This document shows positions 4 to 33,538 of a DNA stretch of 34,783 bases, piece by piece (within the stretch, counting starts at the first letter, position 1; the number at the start of each line of letters is the position of its first letter). The position numbers and the translations under genes are program-made. This stretch comes from Thermoproteota archaeon (lineage in GTDB: Archaea > Thermoproteota > Thermoprotei_A > Sulfolobales > Pyrodictiaceae): assembly GCA_013153145.1 (NCBI GenBank), contig JAADEY010000021.1, positions 1 through 34,783 of the forward strand, written 5' to 3'. The notes beneath the pieces were generated by a model, which had not been told where the DNA came from, searched no databases, and saw only the letters and a list, made by a program, of their open reading frames with translations.

Positions 4-966
4 GTGCGTCTCTGCCCTAGCTGTAACGAGACAGACTACTATAGCGTATACCAGCTATACACTGACAAAGATGAGGTAGTTGATGTCGCCTATCTGCCTT
101 ATAGAGTTAATAGGAACTGCAGGAACTGTATGTACTATGAACGCTTCATAAGAACGCCCATACCAGTAGAGAACTTCACTACCGGGGAGATAGAGCAGCA
201 TTTTGAGGCAAGACGCCGAGGACAGATAATTGAATCAAATAAGCGGCTTGATCCTTCCACGAAAAACCATTATGTTGCATCCCTAATAGCAGTATCGGCC
301 TGCATAGCTGCCCCCAGACAGGCAATAGGCTGGCGGAACCTCACTAGAAGGGCATGGGCTTATGCTGTAGCTCTACGGTATAGCCCCATCTTTGACACAC
401 TAAAACATTGCCGAAATATTGATGCAAGACGTGATAATGTTTATCGTATCCGAAGTAGAACAATACTTAACATAATAAAGGCAGGAGATTACCTTGGTGT
501 TCCTGGATTCTTCCCTTCAAGGATGATAAAGGGGAGGCTGCTACTGGTCAAATTCAAGGCAGCAAGATCTGTAAGAGAGGTAGCATCATACATAGCACCA
601 ACAGCGTCCTCGCCGGGAGTGTTCTATAATAGAGATAAAGAGTGCTTCATGTTTGCATGGGCTCCTCCTGATTCTATGGAGGAGTTTATGAGTAGGTTGA
701 GGGGCCGTGGCTTGGTGTCTTCCTATCAGGTTAATGTGATTCGGGCTGCTAAGCATACCTCGTTGGCGTGGGAGATGTATAATCCGCTTGATGGGAGGTG
801 GTGTAGGGCTCTGGAGCCTCGTGGGCTTAAGGCTTGTCATGAGAAGGGGATTGTGTATTGGAGTAAGGCAGGTATTATATTGTTCATTAAGGCTGCTCTG
901 CAGGATAGGGATGAGGGGGCTTGGAGGCAGTATATGGATTCAATGGAGTTTCTTGGCGGTGCCTAG
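4..966 (+). CDS. Hypothetical protein with N-terminal and internal CxxC motifs
   Basis: I do not recognise this protein. It begins with a CPSC motif (residues 4-7) and has a second pair, CRNC, at about residues 39-42, so a zinc ribbon near the N terminus is plausible. The remainder is a basic, soluble-looking sequence with no membrane segment. A GTG at base 4 can start it, but the frame is open to the window edge, so the true start may lie upstream. The 3' end overlaps the next gene by 46 bases. Base usage is odd: up to about base 655 the codons are mixed and A-containing, whereas from about 660 they become strongly G/T-rich like the following gene. That suggests a junction or chimeric gene. 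Function unknown. Confidence 0.6.
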   Translation: MRLCPSCNETDYYSVYQLYTDKDEVVDVAYLPYRVNRNCRNCMYYERFIRTPIPVENFTTGEIEQHFEARRRGQIIESNKRLDPSTKNHYVASLIAVSACIAAPRQAIGWRNLTRRAWAYAVALRYSPIFDTLKHCRNIDARRDNVYRIRSRTILNIIKAGDYLGVPGFFPSRMIKGRLLLVKFKAARSVREVASYIAPTASSPGVFYNRDKECFMFAWAPPDSMEEFMSRLRGRGLVSSYQVNVIRAAKHTSLAWEMYNPLDGRWCRALEPRGLKACHEKGIVYWSKAGIILFIKAALQDRDEGAWRQYMDSMEFLGGA

Positions 967-2747
967 TTGTTCTCCTGCTGGTCTGCCTATCTCTTGTAGT
1001 CCCCGTTGCTGTTGGTAGTGGTGGTGGGCCTGGGTATCTTGTTGCTCCTGTTGCTTCTGGGTTTAAGAGGCTTGTTGTGTATTATGGCTGGCTTAATGCT
1101 AGTGGTTTAGAGTTCTACGGGTTTGATGTGCTCGTTACTGCTGCTCCTACTGGTGCTTCTCATGGGGCCTATCTTGGTGTTGTTAAGCGTTTGGCTGGTA
1201 GGGGTGTTGAGGTGTTCGCGTATCTTCATGATGGTGATAGGCCTGTTGGTGTTGGGTCTAGTTTCCGTAGGATGGTTGTTGAGGGTGGGCTTGGTTGGAG
1301 GGAGTGGCTTAGGTATATGGAGGGGCTTGTTGATAGGCTTGTTGAGGCTTATAGTGGTGGGGGGCGGAGGTTTGTTGCCGGTGTGTTCCTGGATGAGTGC
1401 GATCCTGCTTATCTTGGGGCTGGTTGGAGGAGGTGGCTGCCTGTCTTCAATGAGGCTTTGAGGGAGCTTATTAGGTATATTCATTCTCTCGGGTTGAAGG
1501 TTATGGTTAATGGTGTTAGGGCTTATGCCCCCTATGCTGATTATTATCTATGGGAGGGTTTCTATAGTGATTGTAGTGGCGGTGTCTGTAGGCCCGATAG
1601 GGGCTTTATGAGGCATGGCGGTGGGGATCCCTATGTCTGGGTTAATGGTTATGCTAAGTATGAGTGGCTCCGTGAGAGGGGGTTGTTGAACCGCACCCTC
1701 GCGGTGACTGTTGTTGAGCCTGGCGGGGATGTTGCTGGCTGGTGTAGGGCTGGCTATGTGTTGGCTATGGTTCTGGGTCTTGCTGGGTGGGGTTGTGCTT
1801 ATCGCGGATATAATGCTGTTGGTGGTGCTCCGCTCGATGTTGGCGTCGTTGACCCGGGGCTGCTTGTTGAGAGGAGGGGTGTGCTTGGCGGCGTGTTTAC
1901 TACTGGCTTCTGGGGTGTTGATGTTGAGCGTGTTGCTGTCTCGTCGCCTTATAGTGGTGTGAGGCATCACCCGGTTGTCGATGGCTTGCTTGACACGGTG
2001 TATAGGCTTGCTTATAGTGGTGGTGGGTTTAGGGTTTACGCCGTATACTCTGTTGCTGATGGCGTCCTCTACGTTTACGTTGATTCTCAGCGGCCTCCCA
2101 GGATAGTGTTTGATGTTGATTCGAGCGTGTCGACGGGTGCTGGTTGGGGCGTCTATAAGGGTGGTGATGTGCTTGTGGAGGATTATGGGTCTTGGTGCAT
2201 GGAGTACGGCTATTCCAAGGCTAGGGGCTGGTATAGTAGGCCTCTCCGCGCCCTGCCATGCGGCAAGCTTAGAGGCTATGAGGTGGCTGTGCCTGGTGCG
2301 AGGGGGTTGTTTAGGGTCGTCGTTGGCGGTAAGGCTACGCCGTGGATGAGGGTTGACTCGTTCCGTGAGGTGCTAGCCCCCTGCTTCCTCGACGGGCTGG
2401 GGGTGTGGAGGAGTTATGGGGAGGTTGGTGAGCCCGTTGTTCTCCGCCTCAGCATGCATGGAGAAGCCTTGGAGCTCCTGGTCGCCCACCCGGCTGGAAG
2501 GTACTCGCTTGTCATCCATACACCGTTCCGTGAGCCTAGGCCCCTGCACGTGCATTGGAGGAGCCTGGGTGGGGGCGCCGTGGTTGTCGAGGCTGGTTGG
2601 AGGGGGCCTGGCGTGGATCTGGTTGTCGTTGAGTCTGGTGGCGGTGGGTGGTGGTCTTCTTGGTGGTTATTCCTGGTTGTCGGCGTGGTCGTCGCCTTCA
2701 TCGCTGTTGCTGCGGCGTGGAGGCATTACCATTCGTCCTCCTCGTAG
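921..2747 (+). CDS. Secreted, membrane-anchored glycoside-hydrolase-like (TIM-barrel type) protein
   Basis: This 608-residue protein has a signal-peptide-like hydrophobic stretch at about residues 14-31. A C-terminal transmembrane helix (about 578-598) is followed by a short basic/serine tail, so the bulk should face outside the cell. The region at about 45-330 resembles the beta/alpha-barrel of GH114-like and related putative extracellular glycosidases. It has an acidic strand end FLDECD (156-161), a strand ending VMVNG (194-198), and YLWEGF (209-214) with a possible second acidic residue E212. The start is TTG 921 with a GAGGGGG Shine-Dalgarno element just upstream, inside the previous gene. 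The first part uses T-ending codons heavily. The 3' end overlaps the convergent cas6 gene by 22 bases. Substrate unknown; the family assignment rests on motif pattern only. Confidence 0.6.
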   Translation: MEAVYGFNGVSWRCLVVLLLVCLSLVVPVAVGSGGGPGYLVAPVASGFKRLVVYYGWLNASGLEFYGFDVLVTAAPTGASHGAYLGVVKRLAGRGVEVFAYLHDGDRPVGVGSSFRRMVVEGGLGWREWLRYMEGLVDRLVEAYSGGGRRFVAGVFLDECDPAYLGAGWRRWLPVFNEALRELIRYIHSLGLKVMVNGVRAYAPYADYYLWEGFYSDCSGGVCRPDRGFMRHGGGDPYVWVNGYAKYEWLRERGLLNRTLAVTVVEPGGDVAGWCRAGYVLAMVLGLAGWGCAYRGYNAVGGAPLDVGVVDPGLLVERRGVLGGVFTTGFWGVDVERVAVSSPYSGVRHHPVVDGLLDTVYRLAYSGGGFRVYAVYSVADGVLYVYVDSQRPPRIVFDVDSSVSTGAGWGVYKGGDVLVEDYGSWCMEYGYSKARGWYSRPLRALPCGKLRGYEVAVPGARGLFRVVVGGKATPWMRVDSFREVLAPCFLDGLGVWRSYGEVGEPVVLRLSMHGEALELLVAHPAGRYSLVIHTPFREPRPLHVHWRSLGGGAVVVEAGWRGPGVDLVVVESGGGGWWSSWWLFLVVGVVVAFIAVAAAWRHYHSSSS

Positions 2748-3637
2748 GGCTCCTCGGTGTGCACGGCCTCTTCGTAGCATGGTGTTACGGGTGGCGGGAG
2801 TCTTGGCGGGGGCGGCACCCTCTTGACTCCCCTGACCTCGCCCATGCCTATGCCTGGGCCTCCTCCGAGGCCTAGTAGTTTGGCTGCTTCGAGTAGTTGT
2901 TCGAATGCTTCTACGAGTGGCCTCGGCGCGACGATGTAGTATCTCGCCGTGCCGAAGAATATGGGTTGTCTTGTCCCGTGCGATATTGTGAACCTCTCCC
3001 TCCTAACCTTGAACCTGTACAGCTCGACGAACTCGGCGAGCGTGCTTGCAGCCTTCCTGTAGCTTATCGTTGTTATCTCTGTCAGCCTCCTCGCTATGCT
3101 TGCCAGCATCCTTCTCGGGGAGGGATAGTTTATGATCGCTCCATGGAACCTGTAGAATGTCGGGCCGTGGTTGACGACGTATACTGATGCGCAGGGGTCG
3201 CCCTCCTCTGATGCCTTGATTATCTTCTCTGGATGCGGGACGGTGAGCGTCTTCTTGGAGAAGTTGACCTCCTCGACGATCACGTCCTTGAGCATTGAGA
3301 GGCCCACGGTGAGGCTGCTGATTATGTTCGCCGCCGTCACGCGGCCAGGTATGTCCCAGATGTAGAGGTTGAAGGAGTAGCGTGCACCCGGTAGGAGCAC
3401 CTGCCCGGCAGCTATCTCCGGGCCCCTCACCGGCTTTAGGGGGGATACGCGGAAGAAGCCGCCCTTCTCGACGACGACGCCCGCCCCCTGGAGCGCGTCG
3501 TAGACTATCTTCCCGGAGTAGACCCCGCTCCAGGCGCCGCGCAGCAGGATCCTCCGCCTAGGCTTGAAGGACACCCTCCCAGCGTAGACGTCCAGCCTCA
3601 CGGTGTCAGCCTGCAGGACGGCTCCCCGGCAGAGCAC
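2726..3637 (-). CDS. cas6: CRISPR endoribonuclease Cas6 (stand-alone)
   Basis: Cas6 cuts the repeat in CRISPR precursor RNA to make crRNAs. This 303-residue protein carries the hallmark C-terminal glycine-rich segment (about residues 256-270, GLGGGPGIGMGEVRG) that follows a helix. Before it lies a beta-rich body of the RAMP type, with segments such as GPTFYRFHG and a basic strand FKVRRERF. Beyond the glycine loop is an unusual tail: proline-rich, then strongly acidic (about residues 275-303). It starts at GTG 3637; later in-frame GTGs near codon 12 are alternatives. No other cas gene is adjacent. The interference operon lies about 23 kb away on the other strand, so this Cas6 probably serves it in trans. 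The 3' end overlaps the convergent glycosidase-like gene by 22 bases. Confidence 0.82.
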   Translation of the reverse strand: MLCRGAVLQADTVRLDVYAGRVSFKPRRRILLRGAWSGVYSGKIVYDALQGAGVVVEKGGFFRVSPLKPVRGPEIAAGQVLLPGARYSFNLYIWDIPGRVTAANIISSLTVGLSMLKDVIVEEVNFSKKTLTVPHPEKIIKASEEGDPCASVYVVNHGPTFYRFHGAIINYPSPRRMLASIARRLTEITTISYRKAASTLAEFVELYRFKVRRERFTISHGTRQPIFFGTARYYIVAPRPLVEAFEQLLEAAKLLGLGGGPGIGMGEVRGVKRVPPPPRLPPPVTPCYEEAVHTEEPYEEDEW

Positions 3638-3747: not shown

Positions 3748-4956
3748 ATGGAGGGTTTGAGGGGCTGGCCCCACGAGTCCAAGCCACTGCTCGTCTTCTG
3801 GGAGACCACTAAGGCCTGCATGCTTGCATGCAAGCACTGCAGGGCTGAGGCCATAACCAGGCCCCTGCCGGGCGAGCTCACCACCGAGGAGGGGATGAAG
3901 CTCATAGATGATGTGGCTGGCTTCGGTAAGCCGTCACCCATACTGGTGTTTACGGGCGGCGACCCCCTCATGAGGAGGGATATCTGGGATCTTGTCAGGT
4001 ACGCGTCTAGCAAGGGGATAAGGGTCGCGATGGCGCCGGCCGTCACAAGCCTCCTAGACGAGGAGGCTGCGGAGAACATGAAGAGGTACGGCGTGAGGGC
4101 TGTCAGCATAAGCCTGGACTCCGGCGTGCCTGAGGTGCATGACGGGATAAGGGGGATCAAGGGCACGTGGGAGAAGACCGTCGAGGCGATAAAGATGCTG
4201 CTGGGTAAGGGGATCCGTGTGCAGGTAAACATGCTGGTCTCGAGGGACACGGCGGAGACCATACCGGAGACGATAAAGCTCATACTAGACCTGGGCGTAC
4301 CCGTGCTGGAGGCGTTCTACATAGTCCCCGTGGGCAGGGCGGCGGAGGAGATGATGCTCTCCCCAAGCGAGTTTGAAGACGTCTCACACCTCCTCTACGA
4401 GGCCTCGAAGTACGGCCTCGTGGTGAGGACGACTGAGGGGCCAATGTTCCGCAGGGTGTCGATAGAGAGGATGGCCCTAGAGCAGCACGGCATCAACCCC
4501 GACGAAGCCCTGAAGCCCGGGGAGCTGTACCGGAGGCTTAGGAGGAAGATGGTTAGCCTCCTCGGGGAGCCTGAGGGGGCTGCGAGGGCCTCCACTACCG
4601 GCACTAGGGACGGCAAGGGGATAATCTTCGTAGCATACAACGGCGACGTCTACCCGAGCGGGTTCATGCCCTACAGCCTCGGCAACGTGAAGAAGGAGAG
4701 CCTGGTCGACATCTACCGGGGACACCCACTCCTCAAGAAGATAAGGAGGGCCGAGTTCCACGGCCGCTGCGGGGCCTGCGAGTTCAGGGACGTGTGCGGG
4801 GGGAGCAGGGCCAGGGCATACATGGTGACCGGCGACCCCCTAGGCGAGGACCCCGCATGCCCCTACCAGCCCGGCTCCTTCACTAGGCTCGCGGAGAGCC
4901 TCGGCATAGACACGTCGAAGCTCCCCATACTACCACCCCTCAGCATACTCCCCTAG
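3748..4956 (+). CDS. ahbD: Radical SAM heme synthase AhbD (coproheme decarboxylase)
   Basis: AhbD uses radical SAM chemistry to decarboxylate two propionates of Fe-coproporphyrin III, giving heme b, the last step of the siroheme-dependent heme pathway. The radical-SAM cluster motif CxxxCxxC is at C24, C28 and C31 in the AhbD-typical context KHCRAEA. The SAM-binding GGDP is at 70-73. A C-terminal SPASM-type cluster has C341, C344, C350 and C371 around CGGSRARAY and TGDPLGEDPAC. At 402 residues it is of normal length. The ATG at 3748 is the first plausible start, although a Shine-Dalgarno site is weak, so a short leader or leaderless message is possible. It heads a same-strand cluster with ahbAB and ahbC. 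I separated it from AhbC by the CRAEA context here versus WN-TxxC-CxHCY in the 5996 gene. Confidence 0.85.
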   Translation: MEGLRGWPHESKPLLVFWETTKACMLACKHCRAEAITRPLPGELTTEEGMKLIDDVAGFGKPSPILVFTGGDPLMRRDIWDLVRYASSKGIRVAMAPAVTSLLDEEAAENMKRYGVRAVSISLDSGVPEVHDGIRGIKGTWEKTVEAIKMLLGKGIRVQVNMLVSRDTAETIPETIKLILDLGVPVLEAFYIVPVGRAAEEMMLSPSEFEDVSHLLYEASKYGLVVRTTEGPMFRRVSIERMALEQHGINPDEALKPGELYRRLRRKMVSLLGEPEGAARASTTGTRDGKGIIFVAYNGDVYPSGFMPYSLGNVKKESLVDIYRGHPLLKKIRRAEFHGRCGACEFRDVCGGSRARAYMVTGDPLGEDPACPYQPGSFTRLAESLGIDTSKLPILPPLSILP

Positions 4957-5001
4957 CAATGAGCACAGCCGTGACCCTGGGGCTTGGAGGGGCAGGGGAT
5001 C

Positions 5002-5973
5002 GTGCTGGTTAGGCTTGGAAGCCTCGAGGAGAAGGTGTTGATGAAGCTGCAGTACGAGTTCCCCCTGACGCCGACGCCTTATAGTGATGTGGCATCGGAG
5101 ATCGGTATTGGGGTCGACGAGCTATTATCTATGCTCCGCAGGCTCCATGCAGAGGGCGTGGTTAAGAGGATAGGCTTCTACTATAACCCGAGGAGCCGCG
5201 GCGTCAACGCAGTACTCGTAGCCATGAGTACTCCCAGGCCGGTGGAGGCCTCGGGGAGGCTTGACGAGCTCCTGGAGGTGACCCATAGCTATCTCAGGGA
5301 TCATCCGGTCTACAACCTCTGGGTCGTTGTACGCTACCGGGAGTGGGAGAGGCTGGTCGAGGCGGTAATGGATGCATGCAGGGTCTCCGGCTGCACCGAC
5401 TACGTCATCCTGCCCGCAACCAGGCTGCATAGGCTCTCGGTCAAATACGACCTCGCCATGGGTATCTCGAGGGCCGGCCCATACTCGAGGGTTAGGCTGG
5501 ATCCCCCGAGCCCCGAGGAGCTGGGGGTTCCGGGGGAGCTGCCCAGGCTCGTGAGGAGGCTCCCACTAAGGCCGCACCCCTACCGTGAGGCTGCCCAGAG
5601 GCTGGGGATGGGCGAGGAGGAGGTTGTAGACTACATCGTTAAGCTGCTTAGGGAGGGGGTTCTAGGCGACCCGGGCGCGACGCTGAACGGGCAGAGGATA
5701 GGCTTCACGGTGAACGCGATGTACGTCGCCGAGCCGTACCCCGGTGTGGATGCATGCGCCTGGGTATCAGACCATGTGCCGTACGCGACACACATAGTCA
5801 CTAGGAGGATTGTGCCGGAGGACTCGCCGTGGAGGTACACGTGCTTCTTCATGGTGCACGCGGCTGCCAGGGACAGGCTACGGGTCGTCGACGAGCTCCT
5901 AGCCGCCGCGCCCGTCACACGGTGGGATCGGTTGGTGAGCCTAACCGATTTGAAGCCCGGCGCCCAGCGCTAA
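5002..5973 (+). CDS. ahbAB: Siroheme decarboxylase, fused AhbA-AhbB
   Basis: AhbA and AhbB are Lrp/AsnC-like proteins that together decarboxylate siroheme to 12,18-didecarboxysiroheme. Here both halves are in one chain of about 323 residues. Each half starts with the same signature: FPLTPTPY...A..IG near residues 20-35 and LPLRPHPY...A..LG near 180-195. In each case this is followed by a winged-helix-like stretch and a ferredoxin-like alpha/beta domain. A GTG at 5002 is preferred because GGAGGGG (4986-4992) lies nine bases upstream; a TTG at 4984 would add six residues and has no good ribosome site. It lies 45 bases after ahbD and 22 before ahbC, consistent with one operon. I cannot say which half is AhbA and which AhbB. 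Confidence 0.82.
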   Translation: MLVRLGSLEEKVLMKLQYEFPLTPTPYSDVASEIGIGVDELLSMLRRLHAEGVVKRIGFYYNPRSRGVNAVLVAMSTPRPVEASGRLDELLEVTHSYLRDHPVYNLWVVVRYREWERLVEAVMDACRVSGCTDYVILPATRLHRLSVKYDLAMGISRAGPYSRVRLDPPSPEELGVPGELPRLVRRLPLRPHPYREAAQRLGMGEEEVVDYIVKLLREGVLGDPGATLNGQRIGFTVNAMYVAEPYPGVDACAWVSDHVPYATHIVTRRIVPEDSPWRYTCFFMVHAAARDRLRVVDELLAAAPVTRWDRLVSLTDLKPGAQR

Positions 5974-5995
5974 GGGGCATAGGGGATGTGGAGGC

Positions 5996-7204
5996 GTGAT
6001 ACCCCTCTCAGTCATGGTTACGGGCGAGGGCACCGTATCGGTCAAGATTAAGGGTAGGTATGGGCCGGGCAGGCCCTCGAGGTTCACCGATATACTGAGG
6101 CCGATAATCTTCTGGAACATAACCTACCAGTGCAACCTACGCTGCAGCCACTGCTACATCAGGGCTATGGCGGAGAGAGCCCCCGCGGAGCTGGACACCG
6201 GGGAGGCACGCGGCCTCGTGGAGCAGCTGGTGGGGATGAGGATCCCGCTCCTCCTCCTAAGCGGCGGCGAGCCCCTCGTGAGGGAGGACATCTGGGATAT
6301 ACTTGAGCCCGCTAAGGGCAAGCCCCTCCCAAAGCTAGCCCTAAGCACAAACGGCACACTCATAGACCGCGACACCGCCGAGAGGCTAAAGGAGTACGGG
6401 TTCACCTACATAGGCATCTCGATAGACAGCCTAAACCCCGAGTGGCACGACAAGTTCCGGGGGGTCAAGGGGGCCTTCGAGGCGGCGCTGAGAGGGATAA
6501 AGAACTCCCTCGACGCAGGGCTCGACGTAGGGCTAAGGACGACGATAACCAGGTATAACGCGCACGAGGCACCCGACATAGTGGACTGGTGCGTGAAGCA
6601 GGGGATACCGAGGCTGAGCCTCTACATACTCGACACCGTCGGCCGCGGCGAGGGCCTCAAAGACTGGCTGCCAAGCCACGAGCAGCTAAGAAGCATGGTG
6701 GACTCCCTCATAGAGGCCGCCAGGAGGAACAAGGGGAGGATAGAGATACAGCTCGTGAGGGCAAACTTCCTAGGCATATACCTCGCAGACAAGCTAGCCA
6801 AGACACCCGAGGAGTTCAGACAGTACATGGAGATGCTCGAGGCGCAGGGAGACTGCGGCAGGAAGTCCGCAAGCATATACCCGGACGGGAGCGTAAAACC
6901 ATGCCAGTTCGTAGACTGGGTAACCATAGGGAACGTGAGGGAGAAGCCTCTCAGGGAGATACTCCGCCCAGACAACCCACAGCTCAAACCATTCCTAGCA
7001 ATACACCGCAACCTACGCGGCCCACGCTGCAGCAAATGCCCATTCCGCAGGATATGCGGCGGAGGCTCAAGGAGCAGAGCAAAGATACTCACCGGCGACC
7101 CATGGGGAGACGACCCGCTCTGCATCATAGAGGATCCGGTCGCCCTAGCCGAGAAGTGGGGCTTCCACGACCCCGAACTAGAACAGGAAGAGTGCCGCGG
7201 CTAA
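5996..7204 (+). CDS. ahbC: Radical SAM Fe-coproporphyrin synthase AhbC
   Basis: AhbC removes the acetate groups of 12,18-didecarboxysiroheme to give Fe-coproporphyrin III, the substrate of AhbD. The radical-SAM motif is at C46, C50 and C53 in the AhbC-typical context FWNITYQCNLRCSHCY. GGEP follows at about 91-94, then the STNGTLI and GISID strands. A C-terminal SPASM-like set has C345, C348, C354 and C376 around CGGGSRSR and TGDPWGDDP. The GTG at 5996 gives the N terminus MIPLS, which fits AhbC proteins from memory. However, GAGG sits almost against the start, and ATG 6014 is an alternative. It is the third gene of the heme cluster. The last 400 bases use A- and C-ending codons far more than the first part. 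Confidence 0.85.
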   Translation: MIPLSVMVTGEGTVSVKIKGRYGPGRPSRFTDILRPIIFWNITYQCNLRCSHCYIRAMAERAPAELDTGEARGLVEQLVGMRIPLLLLSGGEPLVREDIWDILEPAKGKPLPKLALSTNGTLIDRDTAERLKEYGFTYIGISIDSLNPEWHDKFRGVKGAFEAALRGIKNSLDAGLDVGLRTTITRYNAHEAPDIVDWCVKQGIPRLSLYILDTVGRGEGLKDWLPSHEQLRSMVDSLIEAARRNKGRIEIQLVRANFLGIYLADKLAKTPEEFRQYMEMLEAQGDCGRKSASIYPDGSVKPCQFVDWVTIGNVREKPLREILRPDNPQLKPFLAIHRNLRGPRCSKCPFRRICGGGSRSRAKILTGDPWGDDPLCIIEDPVALAEKWGFHDPELEQEECRG

Positions 7205-9976: not shown

Positions 9977-10645
9977 CTACTCCCTCCTATGAATGTAGTG
10001 TGGTAGTTCGCTGTGCACGTACGCCTCCACGACCTTGGCTTCTGCCTTCCTTAGCTGCTCCGCCAGCGTTGACACGGAGACTCCTAGCTCGCGTGCGAGT
10101 TGGCGTAGGTTTATCTTGCGTGGGTAGTTGTAGTAGCCTTTGAGGTATGCCTCTACGAGTATCTCCTCCTGCTTCGGGGTTAGCCCGGTGTCTAGTGGTG
10201 CTATTGGCTTGTCTTCTAGTATCCTGTAGCCCTGTGCCTCTAGTTCTCTGCGTAGGGTGTGTTTAGCGACGATGTATTCTACGATGAGGCCGCGGGGGGT
10301 CACGATTATTGATTTGAGTAGTGCTGCTGGCGGCGTGTTGTCTAGGGGGCATGTATGGTTCCTGCATATGCCCTTCGGCACTATTATCCTGTAGAGCCTG
10401 CTGTGTTTCGTTGATTGTAGGCACTGGTATCGGAGGTCTTTCTCGGCCCTTATGGTTGCGTCGAGGCTGCGTAGCTGTGTGGGTGGGCCGCGGACTATGA
10501 TCCATAGCTCCTCTGTGTCGCCGTAGACCCTCCTGTCGAGTATCCTTGCAGCGAGCTTGTCGTTGTCCGGCGTCTTTGCGAGGAGCTGGTGTATGTAGCA
10601 GTTGTCGTCCCTCATGCAGATTATAATGTGGGGCTTGGTATTCAT
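9977..10645 (-). CDS. HTH_10 (bacterio-opsin-activator type) transcription regulator
   Basis: The C-terminal part (about residues 155-222) has the HTH_10 pattern: LTPKQEEILVEAYLKGYYNYPR, then LRQLARELGVSVSTLAEQLRKAEAKVV. This is typical of archaeal Bat-like activators. The N-terminal 150 residues form an unassigned sensor region with cysteines in CMRDDNC (10-16) and CRNHTC (about 113-118), so metal or redox sensing is possible. It lies just downstream of the NarG-like operon on the same strand, 91 bases after narJ, with its own candidate TATA box, and may control that operon. Its stop abuts the tRNA-Ile gene end. Coding-strand wobble positions shift from C-rich to A-rich toward the 3' end. 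Confidence 0.75.
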   Translation of the reverse strand: MNTKPHIIICMRDDNCYIHQLLAKTPDNDKLAARILDRRVYGDTEELWIIVRGPPTQLRSLDATIRAEKDLRYQCLQSTKHSRLYRIIVPKGICRNHTCPLDNTPPAALLKSIIVTPRGLIVEYIVAKHTLRRELEAQGYRILEDKPIAPLDTGLTPKQEEILVEAYLKGYYNYPRKINLRQLARELGVSVSTLAEQLRKAEAKVVEAYVHSELPHYIHRRE

Positions 10646-10736: not shown

Positions 10737-11450
10737 TTAGCTTATAAGCTCTGATAGGAGGTCCTGGTCAACCTCTATGTATTTCTCCACGAGCCTTATG
10801 ATTGTCTTGAAGTATTCTAGCTTTGAGTGCTTGTCTACGCAGCAGCGCAGCTTGGATAGCCAGTCGAGGTGCCCTTTCAGGAAGTTTTCCTGCTTGAGCA
10901 GTATGCTTCTCGGCGGCTTCTCCTCCTGGCACTGTTTTGTCGTGAGGTGGTGCATGTATTCTAGCTCGACGACCAGGTGGTCTGGCGGGTAGCGTAGCGT
11001 TGTGAGGCCCTCGGAGGCGTATAGTGCCTGCAGCTCAGCCATTAGCAGGAGACCTGGGGCCGTATAGTATGGGCCCTCGAGCCTCACCTTGAGGCTGCCC
11101 GCCTCCTCCTTGTAGACGTGCTCCCTTAGGGGGCAGGGGGGCTGCGGCATCCCTAGCTCAAAGAGGGCCACGTATTCTGCTTGGAACATGTCCCTGCCCA
11201 GTCTCCCGGCCTCCTCCCGGAAGAGGTCGAGAGCCTTGTCGGCGAGGCCGGCTAGCTCGCGGAAGCCCTCGTGGATCTCGGCCGCGTCCTCGAAGACCCT
11301 CCTCGCCTCGGTGAGGAGCTCGGGTAGCTTCTCGAAGTCCTCGTCGTAGGGGTAGTCTACCAGCCTGGCTGCAATATAGTAGGTCAAGGGCCTTATTGGG
11401 CAATGCCTGCTCTGCAAATTAACCCCCTTCACCCTGCAGGTGTCCTGCAT
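10737..11450 (-). CDS. narJ: NarJ/TorD-family chaperone for the molybdoenzyme
   Basis: Members of this family hold the catalytic Mo subunit until cofactor and Fe-S clusters are inserted. The 237-residue sequence is almost entirely helical. It has the family-typical pattern: a tyrosine-rich helix after LTYYIAARLVDYP, a central LxxEYVALFELG segment, and PPDHLVVELEYMHHL, which matches the conserved PDH-containing helix. It follows narG and narH on the same strand, the A-B-D order seen in type II DMSO-reductase operons. The 137-base gap upstream contains TGTTTAAAC and a CTGTAAGC copy, so it may have an extra promoter. No heme-b membrane subunit gene follows. Confidence 0.82.
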   Translation of the reverse strand: MQDTCRVKGVNLQSRHCPIRPLTYYIAARLVDYPYDEDFEKLPELLTEARRVFEDAAEIHEGFRELAGLADKALDLFREEAGRLGRDMFQAEYVALFELGMPQPPCPLREHVYKEEAGSLKVRLEGPYYTAPGLLLMAELQALYASEGLTTLRYPPDHLVVELEYMHHLTTKQCQEEKPPRSILLKQENFLKGHLDWLSKLRCCVDKHSKLEYFKTIIRLVEKYIEVDQDLLSELIS

Positions 11451-11587: not shown

Positions 11588-12544
11588 CTAGAGCTTCCAC
11601 GTCGGGTACATTGTTAGTACCTGCATTAGCTTGCTCTTGGGGCCCTTGGCGCGCTCCTGCTCCAGCACCTGCTTCACGCGACGCCAGTCCGGGCCGAACA
11701 TGAGGTCCATGTATTTCTCGTCGTACCTCGGTGTGCCGTCGGGCTTCGGTGGGGTTAGTACTGGTGGTATGTAGAGTACTCTCGGTACGACTCCATGCTT
11801 CTCGGCCAGCACTGGTAGTAGTGGTAGTGCCACCTTGTACTCCTTCGCCAGCACGTAGACGGGGCTTGCCGGGTCGTCTATGCGGCCGAAGTATATTGCG
11901 CGCTGTGGGCACGTCCTAACGCATACTGGTGGCTCTCCCCTCTCCAGCAGCGGCGCACACATTATACAGTGGCTGGCCTTCTTCCTCTCGAAGCTGAAGA
12001 ACATCCTTGCATACGGGCATGCCTGTACACACTGCATGCAGCCGCCACAGAACTCTGGGTTCACCAGGACGGGGCCCTCGGGCAGCTTTATGATCGCCGT
12101 GCCTGGCATCGGGCAGACTCTCAGGCATGCAGGGTTGTCGCAATGCATGCATGCCATGGGCAGGTAGAAGAACCAGGCGTCCTCAGGCTTGTTGCCCTCG
12201 CCCTTGTCCCAGTCCCAGTTGGGGCCGAACTGCGGTATCGGCAGCGGATAGATCCTCGGCGGGACTGTCGACTCCTTGTTGTTGAACAGGTTCTCGTACC
12301 TGAACTTGGCCTCGGGCTCGTAGTCCTCCCTCTTCAGCTCCAAGCCTAGCATCTTCTTGTTCAGCCAGTTCTTCGGGTATCCGGGCCCGGGCCTAGTCTC
12401 TACAATCCTCCACCAGATGTACGGCGCCTCGTACTGGTCGGTCTTCCACCACACCTTGCACGCTACGGCGCAGGCCTGGCAGCCTATACACTTGTTTAGG
12501 TCTATCACGAACACGTAGCCGCTGTCCGGGATCTTCACGGCCAC
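11588..12544 (-). CDS. narH: Fe-S electron-transfer subunit (NarH-like beta subunit)
   Basis: This 318-residue subunit passes electrons to the Mo subunit through four clusters. The cysteine sets are C19/22/25/29, C132/135/140/144, C166/169/172/176 and C193/196/208/212. The contexts FYLPMACMHCDNPAC, ACPYARMFFSFE and CIMCAPLLERGEPPVC match NarH and other type II DMSO-reductase beta subunits. In NarH the third set is CRGWRLC, where Trp replaces a cysteine and a 3Fe-4S cluster forms. Here it is CGGCMQC, so four 4Fe-4S clusters are predicted. GTG 12544 has GGAGGTGAG shortly upstream. It is 55 bases after the catalytic gene. There is no signal peptide, as expected for a partner carried out with a Tat substrate. 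Confidence 0.87.
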   Translation of the reverse strand: MAVKIPDSGYVFVIDLNKCIGCQACAVACKVWWKTDQYEAPYIWWRIVETRPGPGYPKNWLNKKMLGLELKREDYEPEAKFRYENLFNNKESTVPPRIYPLPIPQFGPNWDWDKGEGNKPEDAWFFYLPMACMHCDNPACLRVCPMPGTAIIKLPEGPVLVNPEFCGGCMQCVQACPYARMFFSFERKKASHCIMCAPLLERGEPPVCVRTCPQRAIYFGRIDDPASPVYVLAKEYKVALPLLPVLAEKHGVVPRVLYIPPVLTPPKPDGTPRYDEKYMDLMFGPDWRRVKQVLEQERAKGPKSKLMQVLTMYPTWKL

Positions 12545-12599
12545 ACCTGCTCACCTCCGCCCAGGGATCCGGGGCATGCACCTCCCTTGTGGAAAGGGG

Positions 12600-15500
12600 T
12601 TAGGGTGTTGATCCCTTGTACTTCCTTATCGCCACGCTGGTGTCACACTCGTTACCGGTGACTCCCCACAGGTTCCAGCCGTAGTGGATGTGATAGAACG
12701 GTGGCTTCGCCTCCTCGGGGTACTGTACTGCCTGCGTCGGCTTCGGCCTTATCGGCGTCACGCCGTTGAACCAGCCCTTCACGAACGTCGTCATCTCGGC
12801 GCCGTTGGCGACCCATACCTCGCCTGGCTTGACGCCTGGCAGCACCCTCGCCATGGCGACGAAGGAGCCGTAGATGTTGTATACCTCGACGAGGTCGCCG
12901 TCCCTTATACCATACTTGGCGGCGTCCTCCTTGCTTATGGCCACGGTGGCCATGTAGCGCTGCAGCCTCAGCAGCAGATCCATGTCACGGAACGTCGAGT
13001 GGGTGCCCCAGCGCTCGTGCGGCGTGTTCATCTTCAGCGGCGCCGGCTGCCCGTTGGGCAGCGGGTCGACCTCTGGAGGCTTGTAGGTCGGCAGCTCCTC
13101 GCCGAGCGCTAGGAAGTAGCTGTGGTCTATGTAGAACTGCTGCCTGCCGGTCAGGGTCTTGCCGCCGTGGGGTACCACGCTGAGGTACCTTGATATGAAG
13201 AGTACCGGCACCTTCACGCCTCCAGGCAGCTTCGCTGTCTCGTAGTGGAGCTTGCCGCCGGCGGGCCATGGTATGTACTTCTCAACGTTGTCCCTCCATG
13301 GGGTGTGCGGCCTCTTCCTGGTCTGCGCCGAGGGGAATGGTACTGGGTGCTTCTTTATCAGCTGTAGTAGGCCGTAGATGTAGCCGTCCACGTCGCCCTT
13401 GAACAGCTTCTCCTCTATCAGCTTCCTAACCTCCGGCGCCAGCTGGTCCTTGTACTTGGCGTAGCCCTCGGGGTCTGGGTACATTACCGGGCTGTGCTTC
13501 AGTATGAAGTGCGCCGCCATCTCCGGTGTCTCTAGGCAGCCCTCGCTGCATAGTCCCTTGAAGAACGGGTTCTCCTTGCACTTAGCGTCTATGAACTCCT
13601 CGTACACCTTGGTGAGGTCGTGCACCACCTTGTTCCTGGTGTCGTAGAACCTCACTCCACCCCTCCTAGCCGCCTCCATTGATATCGCCTTTGCAAGCAT
13701 CTTGAATATCTCGAAGTCGCTCCTCGCCTCCCCGAGTGGCTGCGCCGCCGCGTTCAGCGCCTGTATATAGACGTGCATCGGGGTCGTCTCGATGTCGAAC
13801 TTCTCGTACCAGGTCGCCGTGGGTAGCACGTAGTCTGCGAATACCGCGGTGGTGTTCATACGGAAGTCTATCACTACTATGAGCTCGAGCTTCTTCGGAT
13901 CCTTGAACCACTCAAGGGTCTTGAAGCCGCCCTTGCTCTGGTTGAGGAAGTTGCCACGCCATATTATCATTGCCCTCGGCCTCTTCGGCGGCTTCGGGTA
14001 GACCGGCACCCAGCCCTCGGCGAGCGCCTTGAGTATCAGGTAGTTCCTGTAGCCCCTCACGTTCCTTGGGTCGGTGCTGACGGGCTCCTGGAACTTGCCC
14101 GGCAGTGGGCCGGGCAGCTTTGTAAGCCTGCCTGCCTCGATGTCCGCGACTATCTCCTTGAACGTCTTCCCTAGCTTCCAGAGCTCGGTGTAGTAGTGCA
14201 CCCAGACGTAGAGGGTTGCGTTCTCCGGCCTCGTCTTCAGTATGCGGCCGTACTTGCCTAGGCCCTTCAGCCATACCTTGTACTGGCCGGTGTACTGGTT
14301 GAAGTTGCCGCCGTTGATGCCTATGTTGCCGGTCAGCGCCAGCAATAGTATCATGCTCCTGTTGTTGAGGTCGTTGTTGAACCAGTGGTTGGTGCCTCCA
14401 CCCTCTATTATCATGGCTGGCTTTATCTTGCCTAGGAGCTCTCCGAGCATCTTCACCTTCTCCGGCGGCACACCGGTTATCTCTGATACCTTCTCCGGCG
14501 TGTACTCGGCGAGCTTCTCCTTCAGTATCCTGAACACAGTCTTTACCTTCACCATCCTGCCGTCCTTGAGCTTCACCATCCACTCTCCGTCAAGCACCGG
14601 GTTGATGCCATACTTCTTCAGGTCTAGGTCGCGGTTGTCACCCATGCAGCCGGGCGCCACGACGGGCTTGTTGGTGTTGGCATCCCATACGTATAGCTTG
14701 AATGGGCTGCCTCCCTCAACCAGGTCGCTCTCACGCAGGAACTTCTTCGTGTCGCACCTAACCAGGAACGGCATATCGGTGAACGTCTTGACGTACTCCT
14801 CGTCGTAGAGCTTGTTGTCTATTATGTACTTCGCGACGCCCAGCGCCAGGGCGGCGTCGGTGCCTGGCTTGACGCTTATGAACTCGTCGGCTATCCTCGC
14901 TGTGGCGTTGAAGTCCGTGCCTATGTATATGACCTTGGTGCCCCTATACTTCGCGTTGGTTATGAAGTGCGCGGCTGCTATACGGCTCTCAGCTATGTTG
15001 GTACCCCATATGATTATCAGCCTGGCGTTGAGCCAGTCGGCCTCCTCACACTCCTCGGTCTGCACACCCCATGTTATCGTCTCTCCTGGAGGCAGGTCAC
15101 AGTACCAGTCGTAGAAGCTCAGTGGGCCGCTAGCACCCAGCAGGTTCGCGAGCCTATAGCCAGCGCCGGCGGAGATGTAGTTGTATGCTGGTATCGGCGA
15201 GAAGAACACTATAGCCTCGCCAGCATCCTTGCCGCCGTACTTTGCTGCCTCATCCTGTATGATATCTATTATCTTCGAGGCTATCTCCTTCAGCGCCTGG
15301 TCCCAGGTAATCCTCTTGAACTTGCCACTACCCCTAGGACCGACCCTCTTGTAGGGGAAGAGGACCCTCATCGGGCCGTAGATGTACCTCACGTAGGAGG
15401 CGCCGCGCTGGCAGCCCCTAGGGTTGTACTCGTGGCCCACAACCGGGTCGTAGACGTGGTAGTCGGCGGCCTGCTCCAACCCTATGATTATGTTGCCGTT

Positions 15501-15782
15501 CACATACGCCTTCCAGCCACACGCCTGCGTACAGTTGCCGGCACAGGTGCTCCTCACAACCTTGGTGTAGGTGACGCGCTGGCCCCAGTAGTACATCGTC
15601 GTCATGGCAACCCTTGAGTCCCTGAAGCTTGACAGCGTCTTCATCACTGCCTGGCCCTTCTTTATATCCTCGATAACCTTGGCGAGTAGTGGCAGGCCTG
15701 CAGTAACAGCTACAGCCTTAAGGAACTGCCTCCTCGTTACGAGCAGGCCCTCCCTCCTACGAGGACTAGAGCCCTGCGCCAC
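12600..15782 (-). CDS. narG: Molybdopterin oxidoreductase catalytic subunit (NarG-like, type II DMSO reductase family)
   Basis: This 1060-residue Mo-bisPGD enzyme has a Tat signal, TRRQFLK (16-22), and a hydrophobic stretch after it, so it should act outside the membrane. The N-terminal 4Fe-4S ligands are C80, C84, C88 and C124 in RSTCAGNCTQACGW...NPRGCQRGAS. Nitrate reductases have His where C80 is. The Mo-binding region SFYDWYCDLPP places D229 as the type II Asp ligand. WGTNIAESR and PGTDAALALG follow the NarG pattern. GTG 15782 has AAGGTG eight bases upstream. Nitrate is the first guess for the acceptor. Archaeal (per)chlorate or related oxyanion reductases belong to the same family and cannot be excluded. 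Confidence 0.87.
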   Translation of the reverse strand: MAQGSSPRRREGLLVTRRQFLKAVAVTAGLPLLAKVIEDIKKGQAVMKTLSSFRDSRVAMTTMYYWGQRVTYTKVVRSTCAGNCTQACGWKAYVNGNIIIGLEQAADYHVYDPVVGHEYNPRGCQRGASYVRYIYGPMRVLFPYKRVGPRGSGKFKRITWDQALKEIASKIIDIIQDEAAKYGGKDAGEAIVFFSPIPAYNYISAGAGYRLANLLGASGPLSFYDWYCDLPPGETITWGVQTEECEEADWLNARLIIIWGTNIAESRIAAAHFITNAKYRGTKVIYIGTDFNATARIADEFISVKPGTDAALALGVAKYIIDNKLYDEEYVKTFTDMPFLVRCDTKKFLRESDLVEGGSPFKLYVWDANTNKPVVAPGCMGDNRDLDLKKYGINPVLDGEWMVKLKDGRMVKVKTVFRILKEKLAEYTPEKVSEITGVPPEKVKMLGELLGKIKPAMIIEGGGTNHWFNNDLNNRSMILLLALTGNIGINGGNFNQYTGQYKVWLKGLGKYGRILKTRPENATLYVWVHYYTELWKLGKTFKEIVADIEAGRLTKLPGPLPGKFQEPVSTDPRNVRGYRNYLILKALAEGWVPVYPKPPKRPRAMIIWRGNFLNQSKGGFKTLEWFKDPKKLELIVVIDFRMNTTAVFADYVLPTATWYEKFDIETTPMHVYIQALNAAAQPLGEARSDFEIFKMLAKAISMEAARRGGVRFYDTRNKVVHDLTKVYEEFIDAKCKENPFFKGLCSEGCLETPEMAAHFILKHSPVMYPDPEGYAKYKDQLAPEVRKLIEEKLFKGDVDGYIYGLLQLIKKHPVPFPSAQTRKRPHTPWRDNVEKYIPWPAGGKLHYETAKLPGGVKVPVLFISRYLSVVPHGGKTLTGRQQFYIDHSYFLALGEELPTYKPPEVDPLPNGQPAPLKMNTPHERWGTHSTFRDMDLLLRLQRYMATVAISKEDAAKYGIRDGDLVEVYNIYGSFVAMARVLPGVKPGEVWVANGAEMTTFVKGWFNGVTPIRPKPTQAVQYPEEAKPPFYHIHYGWNLWGVTGNECDTSVAIRKYKGSTP

Positions 15783-26948: not shown

Positions 26949-27614
26949 ATGAAGAGCCTTATCGCGACGCTCGGCTTCGACGATAAGCCTATAACGCATG
27001 CGACGCTCATCGACCGCTACGACCTCCTCATCGCCATCGCCCTCAAGACCAGCAGCGAGGCTTGGAGCAGGGTTGAGATGGCCTACCATAAGGCCCTGGG
27101 GGTTGTCCGTGATAGGATTCAGCGCGCCAGGCTCGTGGGCGTGGAGATACCCGCGGGTGTCGGGAGGGAGAGGCTGCTCAGCTGGCTCACCCGCAGGGTT
27201 AAGGAGGTTGTTGAACCAGTTGTACGCGACTCGAGCAGCGTCGTCCTGCAGCTGAGCGGCGGGCCTAGGATGCTCATACTAGCCGTCTACACCGCCGCCA
27301 TGAGCCTCGACGACCCCGAGGCCTCGAAGATCACAGTGATTGTTGAGGGTGAGGGGTTTGCAGCCGAGGCGTGGGAGCCCCTCATAAACCTCAAGCCGGT
27401 GCCGCTCACGAGCCTCCACCGCGCCGTGCTGAAGATACTCCTCGAGGCCGGGGCGCCCCTCGGCCCAACCGACGTCGCGTCGAGGCTAGGGGTCAGCAAG
27501 TCCACCGCCTACAAGTACCTCCGGCAGCTCATGGAGCACGGCCTCGTAGAGAAGGTGAACGAGAAGGGCAAGTACCGGGCCACCGGCAGGGCCCTCGTAA
27601 ACGCTGCTGTATAG
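26949..27614 (+). CDS. csa3: CRISPR-associated transcription regulator Csa3 (CARF-HTH)
   Basis: Csa3 regulators sense cyclic oligoadenylate or related ligands with a CARF domain and control cas genes or CRISPR arrays in type I-A systems. The N-terminal 140 residues are CARF-like: MKSLIATLGFDDKPITHA, then the conserved LSGGPRMLILAVYTAA (about 103-118). The C-terminal part (about 150-215) is a winged helix with TSLHRAVLKILLEAG, DVASRLGVSKSTAYKYLRQL and EHGLVEK. At 221 residues it is of usual length. ATG 26949 is the start. It opens the cas locus, 66 bases before the next gene, and its promoter shares motifs with those of downstream genes. Confidence 0.87.
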   Translation: MKSLIATLGFDDKPITHATLIDRYDLLIAIALKTSSEAWSRVEMAYHKALGVVRDRIQRARLVGVEIPAGVGRERLLSWLTRRVKEVVEPVVRDSSSVVLQLSGGPRMLILAVYTAAMSLDDPEASKITVIVEGEGFAAEAWEPLINLKPVPLTSLHRAVLKILLEAGAPLGPTDVASRLGVSKSTAYKYLRQLMEHGLVEKVNEKGKYRATGRALVNAAV

Positions 27615-27655
27615 GGGCCGGCGTACACCCTCATTTTTAATCCCCCATAATGACG

Positions 27656-27673
27656 GTATACTACACGCGCGTG
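27656..27673 (+). promoter_or_regulatory. GTATACTAC motif and CACGCGCGTG palindrome before the 27681 gene
   Basis: GTATACTAC (27656-27664) repeats the motif found twice upstream of csa3. It runs into the perfect palindrome CACGCGCGTG (27664-27673), which ends seven bases before the ATG at 27681. TTTTTAATC at about 27635-27643 may be the TATA box. A bound protein here would cover the transcription start. Confidence 0.45.
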
Positions 27674-27680
27674 CCTAGCC

Positions 27681-28289
27681 ATGGCCTCCGGGAGCATCAT
27701 AACCCGGGCGCTGAGCGTGGGGCCGGAGCCCCTCCAACGCGTCAGGCTCGGCAGCAGGGATGTACGCCGCCTCCTGAAAAGGAGCCCCGGCGTGATACCC
27801 TTCATAGAGCAGCCGGAGAAGTGCTTCGTGCTCGAGAACGTGGCGGTGGAGGACGACAAGGTAGACCTCCTGGTGGTAGAGCCGGGGCCTAGGAGGGCCA
27901 GCCCAGACCTATACCTCGTCTACCTGCGCTGGTACCGGTATGGCAGCAGGTTCGAGGCCTACTCGGCTGATGAGGCCTACTGGGAGATAGGCCACGACAT
28001 AGAGGCTGCGAGCGACTCGGTGGCAGCCGTCGGCGAGATGGGGTCCTCGAGGGAGCAGTGGGCCCTGGAGCTGAAGAGGAGGATTAAGGAGAGGCTCGGC
28101 GTGAAGAGGCTCTCCGTCGGAGAGGTCTACATGATAGCCGTGTTCGACGAGCTCCCCGCAAGCATAATAGGAATGATGGACTACGTGAACGACGTCGTAG
28201 GGGCATACGTGGACGCCATGCAGATCCAGCTCTTCCGGGGGAGGGGAGGCTGCGAGATGGCCGTGTCAAGCATCTACACGTGGAGGTAA
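27681..28289 (+). CDS. Uncharacterised protein inside the type I-A cas locus
   Basis: I do not recognise this 202-residue protein. It has a basic N-terminal stretch (GSRDVRRLLKRSPG), then an alternating alpha/beta body with KVDLLVVEPG and DLYLVYLRWYRYGSRFEAYSADEAYWEIG. A charged helix (ALELKRRIKERLG) follows, then VGEVYMIAVFDELP and a final helix with GMMDYVNDVVGAYVDAM. No transmembrane segment is seen. It sits between csa3 and csa5 on the same strand. Its promoter carries the GTATACTAC motif also present before csa3, so it is probably co-regulated with the CRISPR genes. An accessory or effector role is inferred from position only. ATG 27681 is the start. Confidence 0.6.
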   Translation: MASGSIITRALSVGPEPLQRVRLGSRDVRRLLKRSPGVIPFIEQPEKCFVLENVAVEDDKVDLLVVEPGPRRASPDLYLVYLRWYRYGSRFEAYSADEAYWEIGHDIEAASDSVAAVGEMGSSREQWALELKRRIKERLGVKRLSVGEVYMIAVFDELPASIIGMMDYVNDVVGAYVDAMQIQLFRGRGGCEMAVSSIYTWR

Positions 28290-28324
28290 AAAGCACCGGT
28301 ATAGGGTCTGCAGAACCGTTCATT

Positions 28325-28343
28325 TACACGTGGACGCCGTGTA
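28325..28343 (+). promoter_or_regulatory. TACACG/CGTGTA inverted repeat upstream of csa5
   Basis: TACACG (28325-28330) and CGTGTA (28338-28343) form a perfect inverted repeat with a seven-base spacer. The left part, TACACGTGGACGCC, matches TACATGTGGATGCC before csa3. TACACGTGGA also occurs at 28275-28284 at the end of the previous gene. CATAGTATAG at 28371-28380 may be the TATA region for the csa5-cas3'' operon. Confidence 0.5.
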
Positions 28344-28395
28344 GGTAGCCGTCTTTTACCGTCCACGGGGCATAGTATAGGCTGGTGCCCTACCC

Positions 28396-28809
28396 GTGCA
28401 GAGTACCGGGGAGCGGGGCGGAGCCCCGAGACTCTACTACATCTCCTGCATACTCTCCTACTTCGCCGAGAACAGGCAGTACGGCGTCCTGGACCGCGTC
28501 GCCAACGCGCTCGGCCCCGACCAGGCCATAGCCGCGCTCTACGACGCCCTCCGCTCCTACCGCAGCAACTGCGTGAAGCCCCCCGAGGAGTTCAACGCCA
28601 TGAAGCCCGAGGAGAAGAGGCTCTGCATGGCATGCGGCAAGGACCCACACGAGCTCGTCTCGAAGGCGAAGTACGAGGTCGAGGAGCTCTCCAAGCTCCT
28701 CCTAGACCCCGCGAGGATCGAGGAGGCGCTACGCCTAGCGAGGGTCGCCGCACTCTACGCACTCACCTACACGGGGGCCGGGCCCCGCTCCAAGCAGGGG
28801 GAGGGGTGA
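28396..28809 (+). CDS. csa5: Type I-A Cascade small subunit Csa5 (Cas11a)
   Basis: Csa5 is the helical small subunit that lines the crRNA-target groove of the type I-A complex. The 137-residue, mostly helical protein starts, after a variable N terminus, with LYYISCILSYFAENRQYG and continues through GPDQAIAALYDALRSY and a long charged helix to RLARVAALYALTYTG. These helices and the position directly before cas7 fit Csa5. CMAC near residue 77-80 is notable. GTG 28396 is the start; a strong ribosome site is not seen, so it may be leaderless or have a short leader. The stop codon overlaps the ribosome site of cas7. Confidence 0.78.
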   Translation: MQSTGERGGAPRLYYISCILSYFAENRQYGVLDRVANALGPDQAIAALYDALRSYRSNCVKPPEEFNAMKPEEKRLCMACGKDPHELVSKAKYEVEELSKLLLDPARIEEALRLARVAALYALTYTGAGPRSKQGEG

Positions 28810-28815
28810 AGACCC

Positions 28816-29853
28816 ATGCCCGTCTACATGGCCGTATCGGCCCGCATACTAGTCAACATGGAAGCACTAAACATGGCTGAGAGCGTAGGCAACGTCGTAC
28901 GCCACCGCCGCGCACCAGTAGTATTCAGGACGGGTACGGGCTTCGTCCTCCGCTACGTGCCCGTCGTGAGCGGTGAGAGCCTGGCACACCACTACCAGCG
29001 CCTACTAGCAGAGCTCGCAAAGCAGCGCGGCCTACCAGTATGCAAGGCCTGCAGCCAGGGAGTCTTCCTCAAGCACGCCGACCGCCAGGTCTTCAAGACC
29101 TATGACGGGATAGCAGACCCTAAGAAGAAGTTCGGGAAGGGAACCGAGGTGGAGAAATACATAGTCGAGAACTGCGTCGTGGAGGACATAGGAGGCTTCC
29201 TCTTCACAGACATGACTATAAAGAGGACCTCGAGGTTCAGGGTAGGCTACATGGTGCCCGCCCTAGACGCCCTTGAGAAGGGCGCGGCAGCAACCGAGGC
29301 CCAGTTCCATGTAAGGTACTCGCCCGGCGCCCAGGCAGGGCAGCAGGCGATATACTACGTTGAGGTGGGGAGCGCCGTCTACGTCTTCAACTACGCTCTC
29401 GACGCCTCAGCGGTAGGCATGTACAGCGCCGAGAACCCCGGCTACTCCGAGAAGACACCATACATACTCAGCAAGGAGGAGAGGCTGAAGAGGGTTGAGC
29501 TGGCCGTCGACGCCCTCGCAGCACTCCTGGGGGGCATGGCGTGGGGCGCTAAGACGAGCAGGTTCATGCCCCACTGGAAGGTGGTCAGCCTAGTAGCCGC
29601 CGTCGCAAGCCCCATACCCTTCACCGTCAGCCCCGGCCACGACAAACACTACCTCGTAGAGACCGTGGAGAGGGCCTGCACCCTGGCAGGCATGGTAGGC
29701 GGCTTCAACGCCACGATATACTACTACGACGACGAGGGCCTCGACAAGCCCAGGGCCTGCAGCGGAGTCGCCGTAGAGGCCTCCAGGAGCTACCTGGAGG
29801 CACTCAACAAGGCCAAGCAGGCGCTCCTGGAGAAGCTGCGTAGGGAGGAGTAA
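28816..29853 (+). CDS. cas7: Type I-A Cascade backbone protein Cas7 (Csa2)
   Basis: Cas7 forms the helical backbone that holds the crRNA. The 345-residue sequence has the Csa2/DevR-type start VYMAVSARILVNMEALNMAESVGN followed by RRAPVVFRTGTGFVLRYVPVVSGESLAHHYQ. Later it has FTDMTIKRTSRFRVGYMVPALDA, and near the end SRFMPHWKVVSLVAAVASPIPFTVSPGH. Cysteines at about 74 and 77 (CKAC) are typical of crenarchaeal members. ATG 28816 lies six bases past the csa5 stop, with GGAGGGGTGA as ribosome site. It would assemble with Cas5, Cas8a and Csa5. Confidence 0.88.
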   Translation: MPVYMAVSARILVNMEALNMAESVGNVVRHRRAPVVFRTGTGFVLRYVPVVSGESLAHHYQRLLAELAKQRGLPVCKACSQGVFLKHADRQVFKTYDGIADPKKKFGKGTEVEKYIVENCVVEDIGGFLFTDMTIKRTSRFRVGYMVPALDALEKGAAATEAQFHVRYSPGAQAGQQAIYYVEVGSAVYVFNYALDASAVGMYSAENPGYSEKTPYILSKEERLKRVELAVDALAALLGGMAWGAKTSRFMPHWKVVSLVAAVASPIPFTVSPGHDKHYLVETVERACTLAGMVGGFNATIYYYDDEGLDKPRACSGVAVEASRSYLEALNKAKQALLEKLRREE

Positions 29854-29874
29854 GCTGGGAGGGGCAGCCTTGTA

Positions 29875-30684: not shown

Positions 30685-30691
30685 GCATGGC

Positions 30692-33525: not shown

Positions 33526-33538
33526 GGAGGCCCCCGAA

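Follow-up and report, generated by a model that had tools for sequence, protein, structure and literature searches.

A probably deep-branching clade of type II-like molybdoenzymes with cysteine at the FS0 histidine position in archaea and bacteria

The locus described here raises the question of whether a NarG/NarH-like gene pair from an archaeon, in which cysteines stand at both cluster-ligand positions where nitrate reductase has histidine and tryptophan, encodes an ordinary nitrate reductase or a member of a separate family, and what such an enzyme would reduce. The window (the whole stretch of DNA analysed, 34783 bases) is one contig of the archaeal MAG G000, which is 1.19 Mb in size, 79% complete, and divided among 47 contigs. 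The features that bear on this question are as follows:

12600..15782 (-): catalytic alpha subunit, a NarG/PcrA-like Mo-bisPGD protein of 1060 aa (PF00384, PF01568)
11588..12544 (-): electron-transfer beta subunit, NarH/PcrB-like, 318 aa, with exactly 16 ligand cysteines
10737..11450 (-): NarJ/TorD-type maturation chaperone (PF02613, 55.6 bits; TIGR03482, 54.3 bits)
9977..10645 (-): HTH_10 (Bat-type) regulator (PF04967)
15543..15545 (-): Cys80, codon TGT, first of the FS0 ligands; every characterised type II enzyme has His here
12038..12040 (-): Cys169, codon TGC, at the place of the fourth FS4 ligand; NarH has Trp there, PcrB Ala, and EbdB His
15096..15098 (-): Asp229, predicted Mo ligand, within SGPLSFYDWYCDLPPGE
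14280..14282 (-): Tyr501, at the substrate gate, where PcrA has Trp and NarG has Glu; every member of the clade described below has Tyr

The alpha subunit carries a twin-arginine signal (VTRRQFLKA) and is the only PF00384 protein in the window genome, at that genome's completeness of 79%. A preliminary description of this DNA had placed both cysteines at nitrate reductase ligand positions and had the Mo ligand retained, and alignment bore out all three placements, with no gaps shifting the cysteines. First, Cys80 corresponds to His50 of the E. coli NarG precursor (His49 of the mature protein): the FS0 motif CAGNCTQAC aligns gaplessly with NarG HGVNCTGSC, and phmmer pairs Cys80 with the cysteine of the NarG variant in PDB entry 3ir5. 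The remaining FS0 ligands are Cys84, Cys88, and Cys124. Second, Cys169 aligns with NarH Trp220 (CGGC against CRGW, with CKGA in PcrB and CKGH in EbdB), and every one of the 16 cysteines in the NarH-like subunit lies at a ligand position (16/16). Third, Asp229 aligns with Asp222 of mature NarG (Asp223 of the precursor); a clade-specific one-residue insertion just ahead of the Mo-ligand loop is present in all clade members. The alpha subunit also keeps Asn83 and Arg126, the equivalents of NarG Asn52 and Arg94, together with His466. Phe223 and Tyr224 preserve two residues of the aromatic gate of PcrA (Phe, Tyr, Trp), and Tyr501 stands in the place of the third, a position whose role as a substrate gate is taken from PMC8301774. 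AlphaFold2 models built from 3-sequence alignments had a mean pLDDT of 38.6 and 41.7 for the subunits, too poor for use, so the cluster geometry given here is read from the alignment.

The closest homologue was found in G082, a MAG from the window's own family (78% identity). The other archaeal member, G010, comes from a genome that is 99% complete (70% identity), and a bacterial member, G597, belongs to the phylum searched around locus L038 (68% identity). Members were also present in 6 of 22 genomes in the class of Candidatus Tharpella aukensis. The close homologues found include no proven nitrate reductase, and a search of viral contigs found no relatives. The enzyme is rare, as it occurred in 3 of 197 genomes of the window's order, and a thinner sampling of the window's phylum (398 genomes) yielded no further member. 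Cys80 was conserved in all eight clade members with a readable site (3 archaea and 5 bacteria, four of the latter from the Ca. Tharpella class), and these alpha subunits follow the FS0 loop consensus C-A-[GA]-N-C-T-Q-A-C (8/8). The other type II alpha subunits sampled (25) all lack cysteine at this position; among them, and in the trees below, PcrA and EbdA are represented by residues copied from printed PDB alignments, for PcrA as separate segments. At the FS4 position, four of six clade beta subunits have cysteine (window, G082, G010, and G597) and two from the Tharpella class have alanine, from which a natural [4Fe-4S]/[3Fe-4S] split among clade members is predicted. An FS4 cysteine also occurs outside the clade, in the corresponding loop of the long-branched EbdA-type locus L085.

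Two further observations concern relatives of these enzymes. A second uncharacterised and more distant group (L024, L025, L082, and L083), found in archaea and bacteria, has cysteine at the FS4 position, a Mo-ligand loop reading GDLPMFW or GDLPTFW, and cysteine at FS0 where that site is readable (L024, L082, and L083). A type II-like alpha subunit in L079 (6439-9006, minus strand) has aspartate at the FS0 histidine position (DLPNCTGAC) and asparagine in its FYNWYGD loop.

In an alpha-subunit tree rooted on FdnG and DmsA, the clade was supported at 100/100 and was sister to all 25 His-ligated enzymes (93/98), with the union of the two supported at 94/99. A second tree, rooted on DmsA and YnfF, gave the same placement and one Cys/His change, and the beta-subunit tree recovered the same clade (96/94) in the same position, with less support at deeper nodes. 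The best reading of these trees, with 25 His-ligated enzymes sampled, is that the clade is a deep branch and sister to the known His-ligated type II enzymes. Grouping with the EbdA branch was rejected (p = 0.004), and grouping with Nar and Pcr was disfavoured by 15 log units and not rejected (AU p = 0.068). The suggestion that the pair marks a distinct branch of the type II family is thus upheld by a strongly supported clade outside the His-ligated enzymes in both subunits. The preliminary description had also treated the cysteines as changes; it had the positions right, but the direction is probably the reverse, since cysteine is the outgroup state, so that the FS0 cysteine is probably ancestral and the histidine derived. 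The archaeon G010 and the bacterium G597 pair in the alpha tree (98/95) and have a common neighbour gene encoding a membrane protein of 159-169 aa, which was not found in the other members searched; the simplest reading of both would be transfer between domains. This protein was ruled out as a general anchor, being absent from the window genome and G082.

Profile searches gave TIGR03479 as the best NCBIfam model for the alpha subunit (755.8 bits, below the cut-off of 984.75) and TIGR03478 as the best-scoring model for the beta subunit (249.4, below 480.7); the narG and narH equivalogs also scored below their cut-offs (421 against 1084 and 123 against 524, respectively). PcrAB was the best PDB match for both subunits (alpha match 4ydd), and NarGH was also among the best PDB relatives, with 7b04 and 2ivf among the alpha matches as well. 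The protein is nearer to PcrA and to the general type II model than to NarG. PMC8840923 and PMC8301774 describe the FS0 histidine (HxxxCxxxC) as conserved throughout subfamily II, and the latter gives two haloarchaeal exceptions. No paper describing this clade was found in the open literature (subscription papers were outside the search), and the clade is apparently undescribed so far.

The chaperone gene also adjoins the alpha-beta pair in G082, G010, G597, and the Tharpella-class loci, and the HTH_10 regulator probably controls the cluster. A regulator that by eye resembles it lies elsewhere in the window genome (L108, 1528-2286), near an octaheme cytochrome gene. The gene order in G597 is NapC-like tetraheme, octaheme HAO-family cytochrome, alpha, beta, membrane protein, and chaperone; in the Tharpella-class loci L038 and L073 it is cytochrome b genes, octaheme, alpha, beta, and chaperone, with a Rieske protein in L038. 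The best PDB match of the G597 octaheme was 4qo5, which we take to be the Ignicoccus hospitalis octaheme that reduces nitrite, followed by hydroxylamine oxidoreductases. The window genome has 3 HAO-like octahemes, all on other contigs; G010, at 99% completeness, has the enzyme and no such octaheme, and octahemes also occur in Pyrodictiaceae genomes that do not have the alpha-beta enzyme. NarI (PF02665) had no match in G000, G082 (both incomplete), or G010, in a search that likewise detected none in G056, a genome with a canonical NarG, and bc-type cytochrome b (PF00033) was not found in these three archaeal genomes.

Several other genes of the window genome were recorded. L107 (1646-3304, minus strand) lies close to an octaheme HAO-like gene and encodes a 553 aa protein containing 19 CxxCH heme motifs, and the short contig L108 (3-8369) holds, by eye, an NrfD-like membrane protein, a monoheme cytochrome, the HTH_10-like regulator, and an octaheme. 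Within the window, 3748-7204 (plus strand) encodes two radical SAM/SPASM proteins around a protein with doubled NirDL-type HTH and AsnC-type domains; these genes likely represent the siroheme-dependent (Ahb) heme pathway, which would supply heme to the genome's many c-type cytochromes. Type I CRISPR-Cas genes occupy 26949-34294 (plus strand) and 2726-3637 (minus strand), comprising a Csa3-like regulator, Csa2/Cas7, Cas5, Cas3 helicase, Cas3 HD, and an unassigned 376 aa protein at the expected place of Cas8, with Cas6 at the opposite end of the contig. A 608 aa secreted-looking protein with a C-terminal hydrophobic segment and no Pfam match is encoded at 921-2747 (plus strand).

In DmsB and NarH, FS4 is a [4Fe-4S] cluster if its fourth ligand position holds Cys and a [3Fe-4S] cluster if it holds another residue, and an all-cysteine FS0 works in DmsA. 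On these grounds, the window enzyme is expected to hold five [4Fe-4S] clusters, four of them in the beta subunit. The earlier claim that both cysteines would alter cluster type or potential needs one correction: a change of type is expected at FS4 only, as an all-cysteine FS0 is still [4Fe-4S]. The expected effect at FS0 is a potential below that of the His-ligated form. Rothery 2010 is said to have found that the FS0 potential falls by at least 500 mV in the E. coli NarG His-to-Cys variant. The kept Arg126 and Trp90 may partly offset such a fall. According to PMC8301774, the histidine is thought to raise the FS0 potential and the E. coli NarG His-to-Cys variant is inactive, so that function as a high-potential nitrate reductase is not automatic.

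We propose a TAT-exported alpha-beta molybdoenzyme whose substrate would be an oxyanion reduced outside the membrane, with nitrate, converted to nitrite, as the most likely case. We hold the chances of this reading to be even; the sequences, ligand positions, clade, and operons were observed directly, and from them we infer the cluster types, substrate, and donor. Electrons would enter the NarH-like subunit at FS4, predicted to be a [4Fe-4S] cluster because of Cys169, pass along FS3-FS2-FS1 to the all-cysteine [4Fe-4S] FS0, and reach the Mo-bisPGD held by Asp229, where the oxyanion would be reduced. In the bacteria, a NapC-like tetraheme or a Rieske/cytochrome b pair would be the likely electron carriers, and the neighbouring octaheme HAO-family cytochrome would remove nitrite. 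The TAT motif, the NarJ-type chaperone, the retention of Asn83, Arg126, and His466, and the recovery of the same clade in both subunits all count in favour of this proposal. Judged from family and neighbours, nitrate is the likeliest substrate, at about even odds. Against the proposal stand the gate tyrosine, which is neither the Glu of NarG nor the Trp of PcrA, the octaheme-free genome of G010, the octahemes in Pyrodictiaceae that do not have the enzyme, and the low nitrate of the Tharpella habitat.

The gate tyrosine, peculiar to the clade, is one of the points that make a different substrate on the same architecture (a sulfur oxyanion, or selenate, iodate, or (per)chlorate) a substantial possibility, though one we would not favour. 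According to PMC8301774, type II enzymes accept a range of oxyanions, with gate residues altering their preference; the Auka sediments that are home to Ca. Tharpella hold little nitrate (PMC9213671). That description of Tharpellota names no terminal reductase and proposes the octaheme for sulfur species; no statement on the adjacency of octaheme and molybdoenzyme was found in the part of it consulted. Conversely, the HAO-family partner and the NapC-like protein point to nitrogen, and the three active-site residues noted above match NarG.

We consider it unlikely that the pair is an ordinary archaeal nitrate reductase with recent His and Trp to Cys replacements of no functional meaning. The AU test leaves room for a grouping with Nar and Pcr, but Cys80 is kept in archaea and bacteria alike and the tree needs a single C/H change, the archaeal NarG proteins of the window's family and order lie far away in the tree, and the narG equivalog score falls well short of its cut-off. 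Slightly less probable again is a dehydrogenase in vivo, oxidising some reduced compound or nitrite, for example: nitrite oxidoreductase, ethylbenzene dehydrogenase, and DMS dehydrogenase are all type II enzymes, and the PDB matches include 7b04 and 2ivf, but the host is a probable vent anaerobe, grouping with EbdA-like enzymes was rejected, and the octaheme and NapC-like neighbours fit reduction. An assembly or binning artefact, conceivable for an incomplete MAG in 47 contigs, is very improbable given that independent genomes, a MAG at 78% identity and a 99%-complete genome at 70%, have the same residues.

Taken jointly and put forward tentatively, the proposed reductase may represent a separate respiratory family that split before the His-ligated FS0, with an ancestral all-cysteine relay, natural [4Fe-4S] and [3Fe-4S] versions of FS4, movement between hyperthermophilic archaea and vent bacteria, a role as the unrecognised terminal reductase of part of Tharpellota, and a substrate of its own. 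Such a clade would be an Asp-ligated enzyme in which selection has kept an all-cysteine FS0 despite the inactivity of the E. coli variant, and an outgroup for the origin of the FS0 histidine and the [3Fe-4S] FS4. Its close relatives that differ at FS4 are natural material for direct comparison, and it supplies a candidate terminal reductase for bacteria of the Ca. Tharpella class.

Among known systems, PcrAB (Azospira, 4ydd) is alike in its Asp Mo ligand, similar beta-subunit size, and exported heterodimer; it differs in its FS0 His (Cys80 here), FS4 Ala (Cys169), gate Trp (Tyr501), Lys in place of Arg126, and an alpha subunit about 160 residues shorter. NarGHI has the Asp ligand, an FS0 loop with Asn, Arg, and Trp neighbours, and a NarJ-type chaperone in common with the window enzyme, but has FS0 His, FS4 Trp, a NarI anchor, and gate Glu, is cytoplasmic in bacteria, and leaves the clade outside it in trees; with Cys169 at FS4, the window enzyme does not have the non-Cys residue that gives [3Fe-4S]. 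Haloarchaeal pNarGH is likewise TAT-exported, lacks NarI, and, like the bacterial clade members, has genes for Rieske and cytochrome b proteins close by, whereas it has FS0 His, Lys at the Arg126 position, and, in H. larsenii, FS4 Tyr. DmsAB (type III) has cysteine at the FS0 and FS4 positions as the window enzyme does, but its Mo ligand is Ser rather than Asp229, and DmsA is an outgroup in the trees. Finally, PMC9213671 mentions molybdopterin oxidoreductases of Ca. Tharpellota, uncharacterised and with no function given. Tharpella-class genomes hold members of the clade, which differ from the window enzyme in the alanine at FS4 in the two beta subunits read.
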